DNA of 64,000 nucleotides from Sedimentisphaerales bacterium. GTDB lineage: Bacteria; Planctomycetota; Phycisphaerae; Sedimentisphaerales; Anaerohalosphaeraceae. The notes beneath the pieces were generated by a model, which did not search any database, was not told the DNA's origin, and was given only the letters and a program-made list of their open reading frames with translations. Positions 24,062 to 34,217 of the stretch are shown here, in pieces. Position numbers and translations under genes: made by a program. The stretch spans positions 16,013 through 80,012 of the forward strand of contig JANQGW010000220.1 in assembly GCA_028282905.1 (NCBI GenBank). The letters are read 5' to 3'. Position 1 is the stretch's first letter. Each line of letters opens with the position of its first letter.

Positions 24062-26593
24062 TCACTCCGTTTCGATATCGACCGAAAGAATGCCGACGCA
24101 GGTATTATCGTGACGCGGCTTCATCACGATACGGATTTTATCCGTCTTGAGCGTTTGGGCCGGATGGACCGTATTGTAATCATCTGCCAGCGTGCTGTAT
24201 TCATCGGTATTATAAATGGCAACCTCTTTCCAGCCGACAGTCGTCAGTGCTTCCAGATGCCACGAACCCGGCAACTGAACGCCGCCGTTGTCGTTATACC
24301 AGTACACGCCGACATTGCGAATCTGCTTGACTTTTCCAAGACCGATTTCGACCCACTGGGACTTACCCTTCTGCGGCCAACTGGTCCAGCGAGGAATTGA
24401 GGTATCAGCAGAAGATTTCGGCGATTGATCCATACGCACCGCATCGGTTGTATCGCCATCAAAGGTATGCGAAGCTGTAACGGAAGTAAATTTCATATTT
24501 GATGGATCACGCGGATCCGGTTTGGCTAACTCTTCTTTCGTACCGATCCAGGTCATCATTGAACTGCGATCCCGGTTACTCCAGGCAAAATACGGTATCA
24601 ATTTCAATGTCGAATCCGAATATTTGCGTCCGGACAACTCTTTAGCTGGAATTGCTACTTGTGTTAAGCCCGTCAGAGCACCAGAATCGATCATTTGGGC
24701 TTCTGCGCCGGCTTGTGCCGCTGTCGGGTTCACATAAAAACGCTGAACCGCCCCGCCGTTATCGATGCCTTCAGCACAATACACCAGCGGGCCGCGGGAA
24801 AATGCCACACGGTCGTGGTTGGCCTCGACCTGCTCAATACAGGTATTGACTTTCACCGGCATCGGCAGATGCAGGCTGACGGTATCGCCGCGTTTCCATT
24901 GGCGTTCAATGACGGTAAATCCCTTTTCCACTGTCGGTTCGACGGTTTTTCCGTTCACCTTCAGTGTCCAGCCGAATGACGGCTGTGAATACGCATAGAG
25001 CTTGCCCGGCACAAGTTGATCAGAAGCCCAAGTGGGAATCCGAAGATACAGCTTAAACCGCTTCGTCTTTGCCGGATTAATATTAAAACCAATTTCACCG
25101 GAGTAGGGATAGTCGGTGGTCTGCTTAACATCAATCTTGGTACCACCCAAGTCAATCGAAGTCTGGCTGCCGCCATAAAGCGTACAGTAAATCTGTGAGC
25201 CGTCCGTAGCGTACATATAACCCGATACCTGCGGAATCAGGCGCGCAATATTGGACGGGCAGCAGGCGGTGCCGAACCACCCTGAACGGGGCCGATGATT
25301 ATAGTCAGCCTCCAGCGGATTAGGATAAAAAAAGCTCCTGCCGTCGAGGCCTACGCCGGAGAGACAATTGTTCAGCAAGGCGATTTCCGCGACATCGACG
25401 TATTTCGCATCATGGTATTTCAGGAACATTCGCATATTGAAAAACACATTGCCGACCGCCGCACAGGTTTCCAGATAGGTGTGCTTATTGGGCAGTTCAT
25501 AGCTGGGACCGAAACCTTCGATACCATGAACAGCACCCAGACCGCCGGTAATGTGCATTTTGGTATCGACGATATTGTGCCAGATGGAGTCCAGTGCCCT
25601 GGTGAAATCAGTTGTGCCCATTAAACTGTCGATTTCGGCCATCGCGGCATATTGATAGGTCGCACGAACCGCGTGCCCGACAGCCTCGGTCTGCTCGGCA
25701 GCGGGTGCGTGCTGCTGAGCATAGGTCGGCGAGTTGGTGCCGCGACCATCAGGGATAAATGATACGCCGCGAATATCTAAAAATCGCTTGGCCATATCCC
25801 GATAGAGTGCTTTACCGGTATAGTTATAAAGTTTCATCAGGCCTAATTCGATTTCCTGATGACCCGGTGCCTGATTGACGGGCTTGCCGTCATTGTAGTC
25901 AGAGTCGCCTTCAAAAAAGACTTTGTTCACATGGCGAGCGTGTTTTTCAGCGACATCAAGCAGCTTCGTCTTGCCGGTTGCCTGTGCGTAGGCCACCGCG
26001 GCTTCATACAGATGGCCCATGTTATATAACTCATGGCTGTGGATAACATAACTGTACGGCCGCGTTCCCATTTCATTGACTCTCGGATTTCCGCAGATAT
26101 GTGAGATATACAGATAGCCGTCATCTTTCTGTGCTCGTGCAATGACATCAATAATCCGATCCATCAGCGATTCAATTCCCGGATTCGGCTCGGACTGAAT
26201 CATCAGTGCGCCGCCTTCCATAACCTTATAAAGATCGGAAGTATTGAACCGATGCGAGGCCGGCTTGGGACCGCCGTTATTTTCGAGATACTCGGCACAC
26301 ATACGAAGCCGTTTCTGGGCCACTTCCGTCTGCTTAAATGCATGGGGCAGCGTTTCATTGACCAGCAGCTTAATCCGCGGCCGCCAGATCGTATCATCCA
26401 TTGTCACCTGATGGAACGGAACCATCTTCACGGTTCTGGATTGTTCAGCCGCCGCAATGGTGTGTGCCGAGAGCAACAAAACCGTCAGCATAAAAAGATT
26501 TTTTACGGTCAGATTACAATTAAACACAACGCAATCCTTTCTGTAACAAAATTCCATAAAACTCACCTTAGTACTATTGTCTAAAAGCAACAA
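24062..26593 (-). CDS. GH127/DUF1680 beta-L-arabinofuranosidase-like
   Basis: FHQVTMDDTIWRPRIKLLVNETLPH; YLETCAAVGNVFFNMRMFLKY; GWFGTACCPSNIARLIPQVSGYMYA; start may be downstream of the listed Met. Confidence 0.88.
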   Translation of the reverse strand: MLLLDNSTKVSFMEFCYRKDCVVFNCNLTVKNLFMLTVLLLSAHTIAAAEQSRTVKMVPFHQVTMDDTIWRPRIKLLVNETLPHAFKQTEVAQKRLRMCAEYLENNGGPKPASHRFNTSDLYKVMEGGALMIQSEPNPGIESLMDRIIDVIARAQKDDGYLYISHICGNPRVNEMGTRPYSYVIHSHELYNMGHLYEAAVAYAQATGKTKLLDVAEKHARHVNKVFFEGDSDYNDGKPVNQAPGHQEIELGLMKLYNYTGKALYRDMAKRFLDIRGVSFIPDGRGTNSPTYAQQHAPAAEQTEAVGHAVRATYQYAAMAEIDSLMGTTDFTRALDSIWHNIVDTKMHITGGLGAVHGIEGFGPSYELPNKHTYLETCAAVGNVFFNMRMFLKYHDAKYVDVAEIALLNNCLSGVGLDGRSFFYPNPLEADYNHRPRSGWFGTACCPSNIARLIPQVSGYMYATDGSQIYCTLYGGSQTSIDLGGTKIDVKQTTDYPYSGEIGFNINPAKTKRFKLYLRIPTWASDQLVPGKLYAYSQPSFGWTLKVNGKTVEPTVEKGFTVIERQWKRGDTVSLHLPMPVKVNTCIEQVEANHDRVAFSRGPLVYCAEGIDNGGAVQRFYVNPTAAQAGAEAQMIDSGALTGLTQVAIPAKELSGRKYSDSTLKLIPYFAWSNRDRSSMMTWIGTKEELAKPDPRDPSNMKFTSVTASHTFDGDTTDAVRMDQSPKSSADTSIPRWTSWPQKGKSQWVEIGLGKVKQIRNVGVYWYNDNGGVQLPGSWHLEALTTVGWKEVAIYNTDEYSTLADDYNTVHPAQTLKTDKIRIVMKPRHDNTCVGILSVDIETE

Positions 26594-26929
26594 AAGACGA
26601 TATACAAGGATTAGATTTCCAAATCCCTATGAATAGAAACCACCCTGCATAGTACTATGAGAATTATTCTGGATTCTGGACGGTATTTTTTCCACCAAAC
26701 GCTGACTATCCCAGAAAATAAAACATACAACGTGTCATCCAGACTTATTTTGCCATGAATAATTAGACATAAGTTGTTTCGATAAAGAACGTTATAGTGA
26801 ATATCACAATGCCGTTTTCTTTCCTACAGCAATATTACTTACAGATCTTGAATTATAATTCAGATCAAAAGTTGAAACACAGTTATCTGATGGCTCAATC
26901 TCAAATAAACCTCTCCTAAATATTCAATG

Positions 26930-28894
26930 TCAATCGTTTACCACAGGAAGCATCGCCACCCAGCGGCTGTCATCACCTCGATTGGCACGGGTGTACCAGG
27001 GAACCAGCGGCAAATCTTTCGGCTTGCCGTCAACCTGCCCGGGGACATGGAGAACATGAACGCCTCCCAGTAAATCACTTCGCCATTCAGCTCTAACTTT
27101 GGTTGAACCACCCTGCGGCTTAAGCGATACTTTCGCCTGCTCAACCGGGAAATCCACATCCGGCTTTTCAAGACAATAAACCAGCGGACCCCGGGCAAAT
27201 GCGACCAGACCTTCCTGAGCCTTGATTCGCGGATCGGGCACGATCATCCGAACGGGCATCGGCAATGTCAGCTTAACAGTATCGCCTGTTTTCCACTGCT
27301 GATCGGCCACATAATAGTCGCCGCCCTTAGCAATCGAGGCCTTACTGCCGCCGGCAACAACTTCGGCATTACTGCACCAGCCTGGAATCCGCAAACGCAG
27401 TTTGAAGTGAGCCGGCTTGTCACCTTCATAACGAATCAGCACATTCCCATCGTGCGGATAGTCCGTCTCAACCGCCAGTTTAACCTGACGGCCGTCGGCC
27501 AGTGTGTGATTAACCGTCGCCGAGGTATAAAGATTCATAAACAACCCATCATCATCCGACGAGAAAATGTACTCGGGCATCCCCCCGAAGAAACGCCATC
27601 CGTTCGGCATACAGCAGGCCGTCGTATGGATTTTCGGCAGCCGGCATCGTCCCGTCATCGGCTTATAATCATGGTCACTCATCCCTGAAAGGTCACCGGT
27701 CACATTGATCGGGTTATAATAAAAATTCGCCATGTTATCCAGCGCGAACCCGCCCAGGTACTGGTTGTAAAGTGCCTTTTCGATCACATCAAAGCATTCG
27801 CTGCGGCCGGTAATCCCGTGCATCCGCCAACTGAACATAATCATCGACACGCACGCACAGGTCTCGGCCATATGCTTGCGTTTACTATAAGCGCCGGGCA
27901 CCAGCTGCAGCGTAAACGCCTTTTTATTGAAATGCTCGCCGCGAGGACCGATGGCGCCGGTCAAATACATGCGAGAATCCACAATTTCCCGCCACAACTC
28001 GGGCAGATGGTCAATCATGTCCTGTCGGCCGTTTTCAAGATAAACCCCGGCCATACCCGCCAGCAGATACCCCATCCGCACGGCATGATCGCCGCAGCCG
28101 GCGCGAGTATCGGCAATGGTCGGCCCAATCTTGCTCAGCTTTTGCGCAAGAGTGGCGGCAAAATCAATATATTCCTCGCTGCCGACTTCACGCCCGAGAC
28201 GCAGGAACCCCAACTCATATTCCGGATGCTCGCAGGTTCCGTCATAATAACTGTTGCCCTTTTTGTACTCGGCAATCAAATAATCCGCCCAAAGACAAGC
28301 GGCATCCAGCATTTCCGGACTTCTGGTCGCACGGTGATGAGCCACCGCCGCCTCAAAGAAATGTCCCGCAATATAAAGATCATGCTTGACACCCCGGTCG
28401 AAACGCTTTTTAGGCGGCACCTGGGTATTGATATAGCCGTCGGGCTTCTGGCACATGAGGATGTAACCGGTAATTCGATCGATTTCGGCACGAACCCTGG
28501 AATCTTTTGTCCGGGCATAGACATAACAGGCACCTTCGAGCCATTTATAGAGATCGGAATCGGCCGCCAGACGATTGCAGACCTTCGGCGGTTCTTTACC
28601 GTTAGCTCTCGCCTCAAAACCTGCCGAAATCGGGCTTTTCGCTCCCGCCAGAACGCTGTCCAAGTTCTGGTCGATCCGATTTCCCAAAAATCCGGAAATT
28701 TGCACATCATTCATAGGCACCGGTCGGCATTTTGCCCGCTCAGCAGGCCACCGAACAACCATATTTTGATGAGGTTCCGCACCGGCCGCTTCCGATACCA
28801 AAAGCGTCCCCAGAATCACCGCTAAAATCACCTGCATTGCAGCTCGATACAGTTTCACATTTCCGACACAAAATCCCATCCGTTTCATTTCCAA
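26930..28894 (-). CDS. GH127/DUF1680 family secreted glycoside hydrolase (second copy)
   Basis: ISGFLGNRIDQNLDSVL; HMAETCACVSMIMFSWRMHGITG; TTACCMPNGWRFFGGMPEYIFS. Confidence 0.88.
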   Translation of the reverse strand: MEMKRMGFCVGNVKLYRAAMQVILAVILGTLLVSEAAGAEPHQNMVVRWPAERAKCRPVPMNDVQISGFLGNRIDQNLDSVLAGAKSPISAGFEARANGKEPPKVCNRLAADSDLYKWLEGACYVYARTKDSRVRAEIDRITGYILMCQKPDGYINTQVPPKKRFDRGVKHDLYIAGHFFEAAVAHHRATRSPEMLDAACLWADYLIAEYKKGNSYYDGTCEHPEYELGFLRLGREVGSEEYIDFAATLAQKLSKIGPTIADTRAGCGDHAVRMGYLLAGMAGVYLENGRQDMIDHLPELWREIVDSRMYLTGAIGPRGEHFNKKAFTLQLVPGAYSKRKHMAETCACVSMIMFSWRMHGITGRSECFDVIEKALYNQYLGGFALDNMANFYYNPINVTGDLSGMSDHDYKPMTGRCRLPKIHTTACCMPNGWRFFGGMPEYIFSSDDDGLFMNLYTSATVNHTLADGRQVKLAVETDYPHDGNVLIRYEGDKPAHFKLRLRIPGWCSNAEVVAGGSKASIAKGGDYYVADQQWKTGDTVKLTLPMPVRMIVPDPRIKAQEGLVAFARGPLVYCLEKPDVDFPVEQAKVSLKPQGGSTKVRAEWRSDLLGGVHVLHVPGQVDGKPKDLPLVPWYTRANRGDDSRWVAMLPVVND

Positions 28895-28945: not shown

Positions 28946-31759
28946 CTAATTACAATCCGGAATTAAATTACAATTCTGCCAGCTTTCACACAGCATCGCC
29001 AGATCTTCCAGGTTAACGATACAATCCCGGTTAATATCCGAAGGCGGGTATTCCAGGCACACTGTCTCACCGGGAAGGACTTCCTGAACACGCTTCAGCG
29101 TGGGTGACGAAACAAGCAATGCCCCGTCCACATAGACCTTCAGACCGCTGCCCAGACCATACTTACTGCCGTCGCGGTCCCAGACAATCGTCAGAATCCG
29201 TCCATGATAGAGTACATTATCCAGACAGAACCAGTCCCACTGGTCTGTCGGCAGCAACGGATCCACCTCCACCATCGCATCGGCCCGCGGTCGAAAACCC
29301 ACCAGATCACTGATGATAATATCGCAATACGTCGAGTGGTTATACGCATAGCCCCGCGGCGTATCGGGAGCGCCCCGCTGTGTCCAGTGGCCGCTGTCAG
29401 CACCGCCGGAAGCCGACGATTCATCAATATAAGTATGAATCCGTGTTTCACCGTCGCGGGTAATGGTTTCGCGATGACTGTTCGTATAGATTTCAATCTG
29501 TTCATAGAAATCGGTCAGGTCGACATAATTTTGCTCATAGCCGCGAAGCAGATTGGCCATACCCTTCAGCGTAATCGAAGTCGCATACGGCCAGACGGGG
29601 CCGTCCCACTGACAGCATCTGCCGATCGCGCCGGGATTATAACCGTCTTCGTCGTGGGCACCGCTGGCCAGGCCGTACGGCGTGGTGAAGCTGTCCAGGT
29701 GACTCCAGGCTAGATCATAATCGACTTCTCCGCCGTCATCGGGAATATTGAAATACCACGGCGTAAACCCGTGTTCCTCGCGTTTGTCCTGCAAAGAGCT
29801 GTCGGCGGGAAAATCACCATAACCAACCTTGAAAAACTCATCCGCCGGATCCCACAAATGCGTCAGCATCGCCTGCTTAATACCGTCAGCCGTTGTGTCA
29901 AACTGTCTGGCCTTGACCAGATACGCGCCGGCATTGTCCTTATCATAACCGGCAAGAATTCGGAACATCTCCGCAATCGCCCGCGTATCGCCAACCATAC
30001 AGGAATTGAGCGTCGCGCGTTTACCGCTGCCGGCATAGCTGTTTTCCATCCCGTCACGGTCGTCATGCTGCCAGAACAAACCGTCGTGGGCATCCAGATA
30101 GGCGACTTGCCTTTCACCGCCGGGCACCGTATTGCTGACCCATCCGTAATAATTCGTCTCCAGGTTCAGTCGATTTGACGTATTGGTCAGAAGCTCGGCA
30201 ACAAGCCCGGCATCCGGACGTACCTTATGTCTCGCATAGACCGCATCCGCCAGCCAGCAAGTATAACGCCGCGGATTGGCCGCCGAATGAACCATCCAGT
30301 AACGTTCGTAATCGTTCATTAACTGAACATCATGAATCCAGCGCCCTTCGTAAATATGGTGAGACACCGGACAGGCCACCGTATTGGTCGAATCCGCATG
30401 GCCGACCGGGTCGATAAACTCAGTAACCACCAGGTTCGGCGCTTCCGTTGAACCGATATTCTTGATATGCTTGCGATAGGTCCACCAGCGGTAATAATAG
30501 GTCCGCACAAAATCCGCATCGGGCGCATCAAACAGGGGAATATTTTCCTTGAGATAGTCAAATGCGTCGGAGTGGCCGTTTTGGTCAAAGTCAGCATTTT
30601 TGATAAATTGGCCGCCATAGACCCCGTTATTAACCTGCGAGACTTCTTCATCCGTTGCCACTTGGAAGAACCAGCGGTCTTCAGCATTGAACTCGTTCAC
30701 AAAGGTTTCAATCAGATTGGGATCCAGCAGCATTGGAGACGCTTTTTCAACATCCTGATACGTCTGGAATGTCCAGATGCGTCCTTCAACAACCGACGGC
30801 GATGTCGGATGGTCATCGACAACATAATCAACCCGCCAGAAGTAATAGGAATCAATCGCCACTGGCCCGGAAAACACGGAAGTCATGGTCGCGGGAACAA
30901 TGGACAACAGTTCGGAACTGCCGGGGCCTGCGTCCGTAACCGCCTGCAGACTCCTGCCGAGATACACACGATATTCAAGAATATCATCTTCCGGCGACGC
31001 TGGAGCCCTCCATTGCAATTCAACGCCTTCCGCCGGAATGGAACCGGCACCATTCAGCGGTAGCGGATTCGAAACCGTTGATTCAAATGACAGTGAGAAA
31101 TTATCGAAGACAGCGCTGCCCTCATTATCGGAAAATGTCGCCTGGCATATCCCCACCTGAACCGTCTCGGGCATATCAGCCCGCGTTTGGGTTCCCAGCA
31201 GCATCCAGTCGTCTGTCTCATGTTCTTTGATATAGATTTCAAAAACGTCGCCTATCCGGACCAGCCGCAGATAGGGCCAAAGACTTCCACCGCTGCCAAA
31301 ACTGCTGGAGCCGCCGTTATCCGTCGAGCGTCCTCTCGTATATCCGCCATAGGCAAAATGACGCAGCATGATATAATCCTCACCCTCCGGCGCCCCCGGC
31401 ACGCGGACCATCAAACCCATATCATGATATTGCGGATCATTGGCGCTGACGACCTGCACCTGGGCGGAAAAATCCCCGGTGATATTTTTATAAATCAGCA
31501 AACCGTCCGCATCCGTTCTTTCCCAGTTGCCGTTCGTCGAGATCATTGACAATCCCCCGTCGGTCACGGTAACCGCCGCCACCGAACAATCACCGGATAC
31601 ACCATCTTCGCCGTTATAAATCAGTCCGTCCCAGATCGTTCCGGCTGTTCCCTCTGCCACATAATTATGAGCAGTATCAAAATTGTCCGTCACTGTTGAC
31701 GCCGGACTGTTTGAAAATATCACTGCTAACAGGATACACCCAATGAAATGTCTTTTCAT
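28946..31759 (-). CDS. Secreted GH63/MGH1-like glycoside hydrolase with C-terminal dockerin-like repeat
   Basis: Signal MKRHFIGCILLAVIFSNSPAS; GRCCQWDGPVWPYATSITLKGMANLL; C-term SDINRDCIVNLEDLAMLCESWQNCN. ORF-track start (32047) lies inside the palindromic element and is rejected. Confidence 0.8.
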   Translation of the reverse strand: MKRHFIGCILLAVIFSNSPASTVTDNFDTAHNYVAEGTAGTIWDGLIYNGEDGVSGDCSVAAVTVTDGGLSMISTNGNWERTDADGLLIYKNITGDFSAQVQVVSANDPQYHDMGLMVRVPGAPEGEDYIMLRHFAYGGYTRGRSTDNGGSSSFGSGGSLWPYLRLVRIGDVFEIYIKEHETDDWMLLGTQTRADMPETVQVGICQATFSDNEGSAVFDNFSLSFESTVSNPLPLNGAGSIPAEGVELQWRAPASPEDDILEYRVYLGRSLQAVTDAGPGSSELLSIVPATMTSVFSGPVAIDSYYFWRVDYVVDDHPTSPSVVEGRIWTFQTYQDVEKASPMLLDPNLIETFVNEFNAEDRWFFQVATDEEVSQVNNGVYGGQFIKNADFDQNGHSDAFDYLKENIPLFDAPDADFVRTYYYRWWTYRKHIKNIGSTEAPNLVVTEFIDPVGHADSTNTVACPVSHHIYEGRWIHDVQLMNDYERYWMVHSAANPRRYTCWLADAVYARHKVRPDAGLVAELLTNTSNRLNLETNYYGWVSNTVPGGERQVAYLDAHDGLFWQHDDRDGMENSYAGSGKRATLNSCMVGDTRAIAEMFRILAGYDKDNAGAYLVKARQFDTTADGIKQAMLTHLWDPADEFFKVGYGDFPADSSLQDKREEHGFTPWYFNIPDDGGEVDYDLAWSHLDSFTTPYGLASGAHDEDGYNPGAIGRCCQWDGPVWPYATSITLKGMANLLRGYEQNYVDLTDFYEQIEIYTNSHRETITRDGETRIHTYIDESSASGGADSGHWTQRGAPDTPRGYAYNHSTYCDIIISDLVGFRPRADAMVEVDPLLPTDQWDWFCLDNVLYHGRILTIVWDRDGSKYGLGSGLKVYVDGALLVSSPTLKRVQEVLPGETVCLEYPPSDINRDCIVNLEDLAMLCESWQNCNLIPDCN

Positions 31760-31875
31760 AATGTTCCCCAGAAATCTTCTCAATTCATATTTAGAATAAT
31801 GATGATGGTAAAAGAAATATCTTATTGTCGCGCTGAGAAGAAAAACATAATTCTGTCGAAACATCAGTCCCCTGT

Positions 31876-32041
31876 TTAGAAGCTGTTTCAAAACTTCTTT
31901 TGGAGTTGCAGCGCGGCATTTTTTCGCCTGATAAGGCGTTGTAAAGGGGCCATAGTCGAAACTATTGCCGCTTTTTCGCAACGCTGTCAGGCGGTAAAAG
32001 GACCGTTGCAAGCCAAAATTGAGTTTTGAAATGGCTTCTAA
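31876..32041. mobile_element. MITE-like 166-bp palindromic element
   Basis: Ends TTAGAAGCTGTTTCAAAACT ... AGTTTTGAAATGGCTTCTAA (20 bp, 2 mismatches); interior also an imperfect palindrome centred on ATAGTCGAAACTAT. Confidence 0.8.
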
Positions 32042-32101
32042 GCACATTTTAACTGCCCCCCGGCATACACTGTTTTAATATTCATCCTAAAACACAGGCC
32101 A

Positions 32102-32141
32102 AGGGGCTGCCCCGAAAAAGCAGGACAGCCCCTCGTTTTTT
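32102..32141 (+). terminator. Hairpin followed by T-tract
   Basis: AGGGGCTG...CAGCCCCTCGTTTTTT. Confidence 0.6.
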
Positions 32142-32165
32142 ACCACACACGAAACAATTTAGTAT

Positions 32166-34217
32166 TTACTCACTGCAGGCGGATTCCGGATAAAGATTGC
32201 AATCCAGCCACGAACCGGCCATAATAGCAAAGTCTGCCAGATTTACTCTACAGTCACCATCAAGGTCATTTTCGACATCGCCCAGGCAAACCGAAGCACC
32301 TGGTTTATCCGTTGTGTACTCAGCAGCAATCTGAATATCTGTCAGAGCATAGTTATAGATTCGGACTTCATCGATATCACCGGGGAAAAACTCAATTCCC
32401 GGTCTCGTACAACCGATAGCAAAATTACTCAAATCCGGAACTTCGTGCACACCCACGGTATCGCTGCCAATGGACTTTCCATCGTAATACAGGGTTCGGT
32501 CAGTCCCATCACACGTGGCAGCCACATAATGCCATTCGTTGAGACCATTTTCCAGATCGGTATCTGCATTATAGTCATCGCCCCACCAGTAGTTAAACAG
32601 GTCGTCGCCGTTGTCAATCTTCATCGCATTCACTTGTCGGCTGTCACCATAAGAACCCCAACCAATAATACCCTTATCATTAAGAGTACTGCTTACGCGA
32701 ATCCAGGCGGAAATTGTATAGGACTCATTACCCACCGGAATATCATTGGCATCGCCGCTGCCGTCCAGCGTCAGCATGTCGCCGTCACCGTCAAAACTCA
32801 TCGCGCCGCCAACCTGGCCGTCAACGATCCAGTTCGGATCTCCGTTAAAGACTGTGCCAATAGCATTCTCAGAATCAACTGCAGCCGTACCAGCACCTTC
32901 CTCGAAGGACCAGTGAGCCACCAGTATCCTAACGGTTAAACGACCTGTATCCGAAGGAGTTGAACCTGCCGAATTGGTTGCCACACAATGATAATCGCCG
33001 ATATCGCCGGCCTGTGCATCCAGAACCGTCAAGGTATCTGTCGCGGTACCGGTGAAGTCGTCACCATCGGCCAGCATCTGGTCATCTTTGTACCATTGAT
33101 AGCTTGCACCGGAAACATCTGTCAGTGCAACGGTAAAGACAGGGGCAGAACCGGCATCGACCAACTGATCAGCTGGGTGTTCGCTAAAGAACGGAACCGA
33201 CGGAATCGTGGTAAACGACCACAGGTCACCGGGGTGGGCAATGGAGTCAAGCCCGTTCGGCTCATAGGCATCAACGTACCAGTAGTAGGTGACATCGTTA
33301 TCCATGTCACCGGAGACCAGCGAATGCAGTGCCGGGTCAACCGTCAGAACATTCAGTCCGTCAACGATCTTTTCCATGTCGCCGCCCGTGACTTCATTGG
33401 GATCGGTACCGAACCAGACATCATATTTTGTGGGCACGTAGTCATCCGGCGCTTCCCAGACGAGGAAGCTGTCAATGGCAACACCGTCTTTACCGTTTGC
33501 CGGTGTCGGATTCTTTGCCTTAAGACTTGCAGGAATCACAGCGGCAATGTTATCGACCTGGTAAAATCCGGATTGAATAGCGGCACCATTCGGCGGCGTT
33601 TGGAGCATCAGGAAAAGGTTATCCGTGGCGTTGGCCGCAGATATATCGAGTAGGGCCTGTACCGCTACGGCATTGCCGGCATCCGCGGGATGAGCAGGTA
33701 AATGGACAATCACTGAGTCAATCAGCACTTCGTCCGTAGCCGCGTCCGGCAGATAGCCGCTCGAACCATCAGCGCCGGCATATGTGGCTGACTGGTACAC
33801 CGACACGATCACCGCGATATCCTCGGTGCCGCTTCCGTCAGTAGGCCGCCCCATCTCGAAATCGATTTGCAGGGCGGCATCCCCGGCGTCTTTCGTGGCG
33901 ATATTCTGGTAAATATACGCATGCTCGCCGCTGTCACCGAGTCGATCCGCTGCTGAAGAGGCCATCAGCGCAAACGCACCACCTGCGCCAAACGCATCGT
34001 TTCGAGTGGCGTGCATGGCGGAACGGTAGGTCCTGGTGTCATCAAACCAACCCGCTACGTCATCCACATCGCCAGATGCAGGGGCACCCGTCTCAAAATC
34101 CCCGTTGACCACCGTAATAGCGGCCTGCGACAGACCCGCAGTGACCAGCAGCAGTAAAACAAAAAGATTCACATATTTCATTGCTTCACCCTTTCTAATA
34201 ATAACATTCTCAATCAT
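32166..34217 (-). CDS. Secreted protein: N-terminal beta-sandwich module + fibronectin/Ig-like + LamG + dockerin-like repeat
   Basis: GDFETGAPASGDVDDVAGWFDDTRTYRSAMHATRNDAF; YQWYKDDQMLADGDDFTGTATDTLTVLDAQAGDIGDYHCVATNSAG (Ig); LamG region; DLDGDCRVNLADFAIMAGSWLDC. Start probably at MKYVNLF (34181). Confidence 0.85.
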   Translation of the reverse strand: MIENVIIRKGEAMKYVNLFVLLLLVTAGLSQAAITVVNGDFETGAPASGDVDDVAGWFDDTRTYRSAMHATRNDAFGAGGAFALMASSAADRLGDSGEHAYIYQNIATKDAGDAALQIDFEMGRPTDGSGTEDIAVIVSVYQSATYAGADGSSGYLPDAATDEVLIDSVIVHLPAHPADAGNAVAVQALLDISAANATDNLFLMLQTPPNGAAIQSGFYQVDNIAAVIPASLKAKNPTPANGKDGVAIDSFLVWEAPDDYVPTKYDVWFGTDPNEVTGGDMEKIVDGLNVLTVDPALHSLVSGDMDNDVTYYWYVDAYEPNGLDSIAHPGDLWSFTTIPSVPFFSEHPADQLVDAGSAPVFTVALTDVSGASYQWYKDDQMLADGDDFTGTATDTLTVLDAQAGDIGDYHCVATNSAGSTPSDTGRLTVRILVAHWSFEEGAGTAAVDSENAIGTVFNGDPNWIVDGQVGGAMSFDGDGDMLTLDGSGDANDIPVGNESYTISAWIRVSSTLNDKGIIGWGSYGDSRQVNAMKIDNGDDLFNYWWGDDYNADTDLENGLNEWHYVAATCDGTDRTLYYDGKSIGSDTVGVHEVPDLSNFAIGCTRPGIEFFPGDIDEVRIYNYALTDIQIAAEYTTDKPGASVCLGDVENDLDGDCRVNLADFAIMAGSWLDCNLYPESACSE

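Follow-up and report, generated by a model that had tools for sequence, protein, structure and literature searches.

The 160-bp hairpin at 31879-32038 is very probably (roughly 0.88) a non-autonomous MITE of the IS5 type that is moved in trans and belongs to a set of hairpin MITEs with one core and varied ends. The evidence consists of the copies of the element, their ends and TA flanks, transposase genes with matching ends, the core that the MITEs have in common, and the covariation of the hairpin arms. The window, i.e., the whole stretch of 64,000 nt that was analyzed, is from a Sedimentisphaerales bacterium (GCA_028282905.1, contig JANQGW010000220.1, positions 16,013-80,012 of the forward strand).

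The hairpin element and its genomic context

The + strand of the element is defined as the one on which the 5′ arm carries the GGCAAGG-type loop. The following features were assigned:

31877..32040, + strand: complete MITE with flanking TA (inverted-repeat search; model R1, 148 bits; homologous full-length copies)
31879-32038: MITE body without TA, 160 bp, with the ends GAAGC...GCTTC, each bordered by TA
31879..31894, + strand: left terminal inverted repeat GAAGCTGTTTCAAAAC, the same end as on a 902-bp IS5-family element of genome G016
32023..32038, - strand: right terminal inverted repeat (GTTTTGAAATGGCTTC on the + strand), which together with TA is identical at 18/18 positions to the right end of an IS5-family transposase locus in genome G010
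31921..31997, + strand: hairpin core common to MITEs with other ends (model R2, 64.2 bits)
31930..31936, + strand: conserved mismatch loop, 5′ side, GATAAGG in the window and GGCAAGG in most copies
31981..31988, + strand: conserved mismatch loop, 3′ side, ACGCTGTC in the window, consensus ACGC-G-C
31952..31965, + strand: apical stem-loop ATAGT-CGAA-ACTAT (sequence and fold)
28946..31759, - strand: glycoside hydrolase gene (MGH1-like), probable true start 31759, 117 bp from the element
32100..32135, - strand: terminator-like hairpin of the upstream gene 32166-34217 (consensus match only)

An earlier note on this DNA had described a TA-flanked, MITE-like element with terminal repeats mismatched at 2 of 20 positions, forming one long imperfect hairpin that closes in the apical stem-loop, and this description was confirmed. 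The repeats of 16-20 bp have two mismatches, as seen when TTAGAAGCTGTTTCAAAACT is compared with the reverse complement of AGTTTTGAAATGGCTTCTAA. The DNA fold has a predicted energy of -52.7 kcal/mol, compared to -21.9 +/- 3.0 for shuffled sequences (z -10.3). The RNA folds are also far beyond those of shuffles, with -85.0 kcal/mol for the + strand (z -10.6) and -64.9 kcal/mol for the - strand (z -7.8). The hairpin is the sole inverted repeat of at least 12 bp in the region 31700-32250.

The element lies upstream of the glycoside hydrolase gene, in agreement with the earlier note, which had placed it in the promoter region. The product of 28946..31759 matches MGH1-like_GH (PF22422, 136.7 bits) and a GH65 C-terminal domain. 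The longer open reading frame 28946..32047 starts 6 bp outside the element and then reads through the whole hairpin, and the suspicion that the element had misled the start at 32047 was thus correct. The true start is probably 31759 (MKRHFIGCILLAVIFS...), at which, judged by eye, the protein would have a signal-peptide-like N-terminus. Because of the terminator-like hairpin at 32100..32135, the element is placed between the putative terminator of the gene 32166-34217 and the start 31759. The copy in the window probably represents an old insertion upstream of this start. An orthologous empty site for it was not found; within the genus, the relatives of the glycoside hydrolase share only about 44% identity with it over their C-terminal half and are therefore not orthologs. 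Two adjacent GH127 (beta-L-arabinofuranosidase) genes at 24062-28894 lie beside the MGH1-like gene, forming a carbohydrate-utilization cluster. The MITE family explains misannotated gene starts such as 32047, and it probably also accounts for some contig breaks in these genomes.

Copies within and across genomes

Covariance models (A1 and R1) were built from 25 full-length copies. Model searches revealed no second copy elsewhere in the 64-kb window. In the remainder of the same genome, BLAST found two short partial matches besides the full copy of the window, and the covariance model found about a dozen further distinct copies, including a subfamily B with GAAGTCATCCCAAAAC ends (GGGATG-type). 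About 20 strong copies were present in G016, which belongs to another genus of the same family and is a complete single contig, and several in G037, from another family of the order. At the covariance-model threshold, three genomes of the same genus (G005, G007, and G010) contained no MITE copy. The copies are very uniform in length (162-165 bp), and the end sequence matched about 90 times in G016, compared to one match for the reversed control. One G016 copy is absent from a divergent paralogous locus of the same genome, the flanks of which run on uninterrupted. The element is thus multi-copy, which rules out the single copy with conserved flanks that the earlier note had named as the opposing outcome.

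Several additional observations were made with the copies. In G016, a T1-related copy (T1 denotes MITEs with window-type ends) is read in frame within an RHS/YD-repeat-like open reading frame (L299:1414-2103, also L228-L230), with three copies having identical flanks. Hairpin elements also occur as pairs inserted near each other (L043:1299-1459 and 1501-1665; C96:25116-25485 (L262) in the window's own genome). Moreover, about ten palindromes of 26 bp were found in G016 (TAGAAGCNGTTTCAAAACNGCTTCTA type; L061, L078, L083, L084, L086, L182-L184, L168, L069) and one in the own genome (L003:1506-1531, TAGAAGCTGTTTCAAAACTGCTTCTA). From their sequence, they might be two ends fused at 4-bp repeats, i.e., remnants of nearly precise excision by slippage across the hairpin.

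Viral contigs contained no exact T1 or T2 matches (T2 is introduced below). A looser core pattern gave 25 matches there, which resembled ordinary coding sequence rather than hairpins. Plasmids did not match the element. No description of this MITE family was found in the literature, the coverage of which mostly excluded subscription papers, so that the absence there is weak evidence.

Partner transposases of the IS5 family

The earlier note had regarded the TA-flanked ends as compatible with IS630/Tc1-type elements and had proposed a search for an autonomous transposon with the same ends. G016 contains a complete 902-bp element that carries both T1 ends around an IS5-family transposase (NF033580 transpos_IS5_3, 144.7 bits versus a cut-off of 110; Pfam DUF4096 and DDE_Tnp_1). 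In this copy, the transposase seems to be encoded in two overlapping frames. A protein search led to an IS5-family transposase locus in G010, from the same genus as the window, and its right end is the 18/18 match listed above, GTTTTGAAATGGCTTC followed by TA; its left end was not found. An IS5-family relative in G037 has the right end GTTATGAAATGGCTTC followed by TA. In the own genome, no complete IS with exactly these ends was found, only a transposase fragment at a contig edge with a B-type right end (GTTTTGGGATGACTTC followed by TA).

The ends vary together with the local transposase: GAAATGG occurs in G010 and G016, TATGAAATGG in G037, and in the own genome GGGATGAC is present on the transposase fragment as well as on the subfamily-B MITEs. 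The variants at the IS ends are those on the MITEs of the same genomes, with the exception of G010, in which no MITE copy reached the threshold. This genome-by-genome match is the strongest argument for mobilization of the MITEs by IS5-family transposases. The assignment to IS630/Tc1 was not upheld. Movement of a MITE of that type at TA by a DDE_3 transposase would fit the TA at both flanks and the about 30 DDE_3 transposase matches in G016; however, the transposases inside the matching ends are IS5_3, and the DDE_3 loci that were examined show T1 or T2 ends sporadically and never as a recurring boundary pair. We therefore regard this alternative as highly improbable.

Among 93 loosely collected T1 candidates, a set with many false hits, 25 had identical flanking dinucleotides, versus 15 expected. 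Because TA serves as the target and also belongs to the site, a 2-bp duplication is indistinguishable from a required TA. For the copies seen, an origin of the MITE by internal deletion of the IS was rejected, as the two have nothing but the ends in common and their interiors are unrelated.

A common hairpin core under different ends

Besides T1, three other end types (T2, T3, and T4) surround an alignable interior. About 25 further elements of 161 bp in G016 are of type T2 (AAGGGTAGCTCTAATAATT ends), and their ends are entirely unlike those of T1. The types T3 (TTAGAGCATTTCAAG) and T4 (TAAGAGCTTCTAAC) occur in other genomes. Invariant or nearly invariant positions are GGCAAGG in the 5′ arm opposite ACGC-G in the 3′ arm, which form the mismatch loop. 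Outer blocks of the interior are also common to different end types.

An exact core-motif pattern was too weak for a search of the 149 genomes, because it was swamped by coding matches in GC-rich genomes, and the profile R2 was used instead. RNAalifold assigned only four base pairs to R2, which is thus in effect a sequence profile. With R2, the core was detected in 44 of the 149 genomes of the order, representing 31 of 83 genera, and several genomes had at least 30 copies. In the rest of the phylum, scores were limited to two genomes of a single genus and were weak. In G181 and G302 (L384, L385, L388, L392), an element from outside the order was seen that is a long hairpin with TTAGACCTGTTCGATAACC ends and a similar AAGGA/TGACGC loop, by homology or convergence.

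T2 has a target and a partner of its own. The same 4-bp AT-rich word was found at both flanks in 21 of 39 copies (4.8 expected), and a 1.3-kb IS with T2-like ends, present in two copies in G016, encodes an IS5_4 transposase (NF033581, 277.4 bits versus a cut-off of 140). Two end systems with unlike target duplications thus carry one core, and the sequences suggest that the core was repackaged more than once between different ends. When the genes of G016 were called by a simple ORF-based method, 18 of the 21 T2 copies fell into intergenic regions, and in none of these 18 cases did the two neighboring genes converge. At L165:1736-1999, the T1-type IS of G016 adjoins the transposase frame of a T2-type IS. 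Some T2 elements (L310, L335, L343) have an extra small hairpin (TCCCGAT...ATCGGGA) in the left internal loop.

Covariation and strand asymmetry of the hairpin

In the T1 alignment, 21 arm pairs were changed on both sides (14.1 +/- 1.7 in shuffles), with 103 double-change cells (33.9 +/- 5.7). The covariation score was 0.383, compared to 0.217 +/- 0.010 for shuffles and at most 0.101 for slid structures; the T1 structure was taken from the same alignment, and these values are thus biased in its favor. The T2 structure was defined from Watson-Crick pairs alone and gave 1756 Watson-Crick cells (1642 +/- 8 in shuffles) and 15 double-changed pairs (10.7 +/- 1.2). Template switching can correct palindromes, and such correction can also produce covariation.

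As RNA, the + strand folds better than the - strand in nearly all copies (24/25 T1, 61/61 T2, 4/4 T3, and 3/3 T4), an asymmetry that may go back to a common ancestor. Across genomes, 82 G-U cells were counted versus 124 in shuffles and 18 A-C cells versus 56, and the depletion of A-C was about twice as strong. As both are below the shuffles, the strand bias is partly compositional. The changes private to individual T2 copies of G016 comprised 22 G-U and 18 A-C, i.e., no strand bias. Within one genome, the structure thus seems to be kept for propagation and not for a host role of each copy. In our reading, the structure is under selection in those lineages that propagate, and individual copies drift once they have been inserted.

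Four loci with T1 elements were compared to Rfam, and no match was obtained up to E = 1. The earlier note had named a conserved RNA leader as another opposing outcome. As the leader of this one gene, the fold is excluded by its recurrence at many unrelated sites, but the suspicion of a conserved structure was partly right with respect to element lineages, between which the arms covary.

Origin and possible role of the core

What keeps the core alike under different ends was considered in several ways. It is possible, albeit doubtful, that the likeness reflects plain ancestry, i.e., that an old MITE had its ends replaced or drifted, that its palindrome was kept by template-switch correction, and that the core is functionless. 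The known correction of palindromes and the outer blocks common to different ends would be in agreement with such a history, but the mismatch loop is invariant across end types and was never corrected to pairing, and A-C and G-U were treated unequally.

It is unlikely that the core is a structured RNA (a regulatory element or small RNA) that serves the host, is spread by MITE ends, and acts in transcripts, e.g., on the stability of mRNAs, as has been suggested for NEMIS and ERIC. The covarying arms, the more stable + strand RNA, the stronger avoidance of A-C than of G-U, and the mostly intergenic T2 copies would be expected for such an RNA. In contrast, the lack of an Rfam match, the absence of strand bias among the changes within G016, and the presence of many copies in some genomes while most genomes have none all argue against it, and one ancestor may account for the strand asymmetry. 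A REP-like hairpin moved by a RAYT/IS200-type Y1 transposase is barely credible: the loop, with AA facing GC beside a paired G-C (GCCTGATAAGGCGTT in the window), resembles the mismatch of GTAG-type REPs (PMC3733652), but T2 makes 4-bp target duplications, T1 and T2 both have IS5 partners with matching ends, the elements are about 160 bp versus hairpins of 20-40 bp, and no GTAG tag abuts the window hairpin.

For the preferred reading as IS5-type MITEs moved in trans, we infer the following course of mobilization, role of the core, and exchange of ends. A full-length IS with the same ends would supply a transposase of the transpos_IS5_3 subgroup in trans, which would bind the terminal repeat GAAGCYRTTTCAAAAC and then cut at the element ends, and insertion at TA would leave a TA on each side. 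The hairpin MITEs of the order combine one core with different terminal repeats and would use different IS5-subgroup transposases. In active lineages, the hairpin of the core stays base-paired and strand-asymmetric and its mismatch loop invariant, and the single-stranded core, as RNA or extruded DNA, may aid propagation or tolerance of the element.

We tentatively hypothesize, without regarding it as the probable case, that in this order the conserved core with its invariant mismatch loop is an independent module, which was packaged repeatedly between the terminal repeats of different IS5-subgroup transposons, and that a factor of the host or the element, required for propagation, recognizes the loop when it is single-stranded, either as RNA or as extruded DNA. 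MITEs are usually viewed as short-lived shells that are set by their ends, with an interior devoid of meaning. Here, the core outlasts the ends: across one bacterial order, it is combined with various kinds of ends and with target duplications of two lengths, while its arms covary and its loop is invariant. If this is true, the long hairpins in MITEs of bacteria have a role on which selection can act.

Comparison with known elements

The IS5-family ISs (NF033580 transpos_IS5_3, NF033581 transpos_IS5_4) resemble the MITEs in their ends and in the TA and 4-bp targets, whereas their interior is unrelated. RUP of Streptococcus pneumoniae is a 107-bp element with the ends of IS630-Spn1 (PMC2229807). 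Like RUP, the window family is non-autonomous, inserted at TA, intergenic, present in many copies, and has ends that match a full-length IS; it differs in its length of 160 bp, its IS5-family partner, and a core common to elements with other ends. Correia/NEMIS and ERIC are palindromic MITEs of about 105-155 bp, and a role in transcripts (RNase III, RNase E) has been proposed for their hairpins (PMC2229807). The window family is likewise palindromic and forms hairpins, but it has other sequences, occurs in other bacteria, varies its ends around a constant core, and is known from sequence alone. The Rickettsia palindromic elements form a long hairpin and are intergenic, occasionally in frame within ORFs (PMC2229807), and they are similar to the window family in the long hairpin and in the one G016 copy within an open RHS-like frame. 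The comparison is one of organization, and the window family differs in that an IS5-family partner was found for it.
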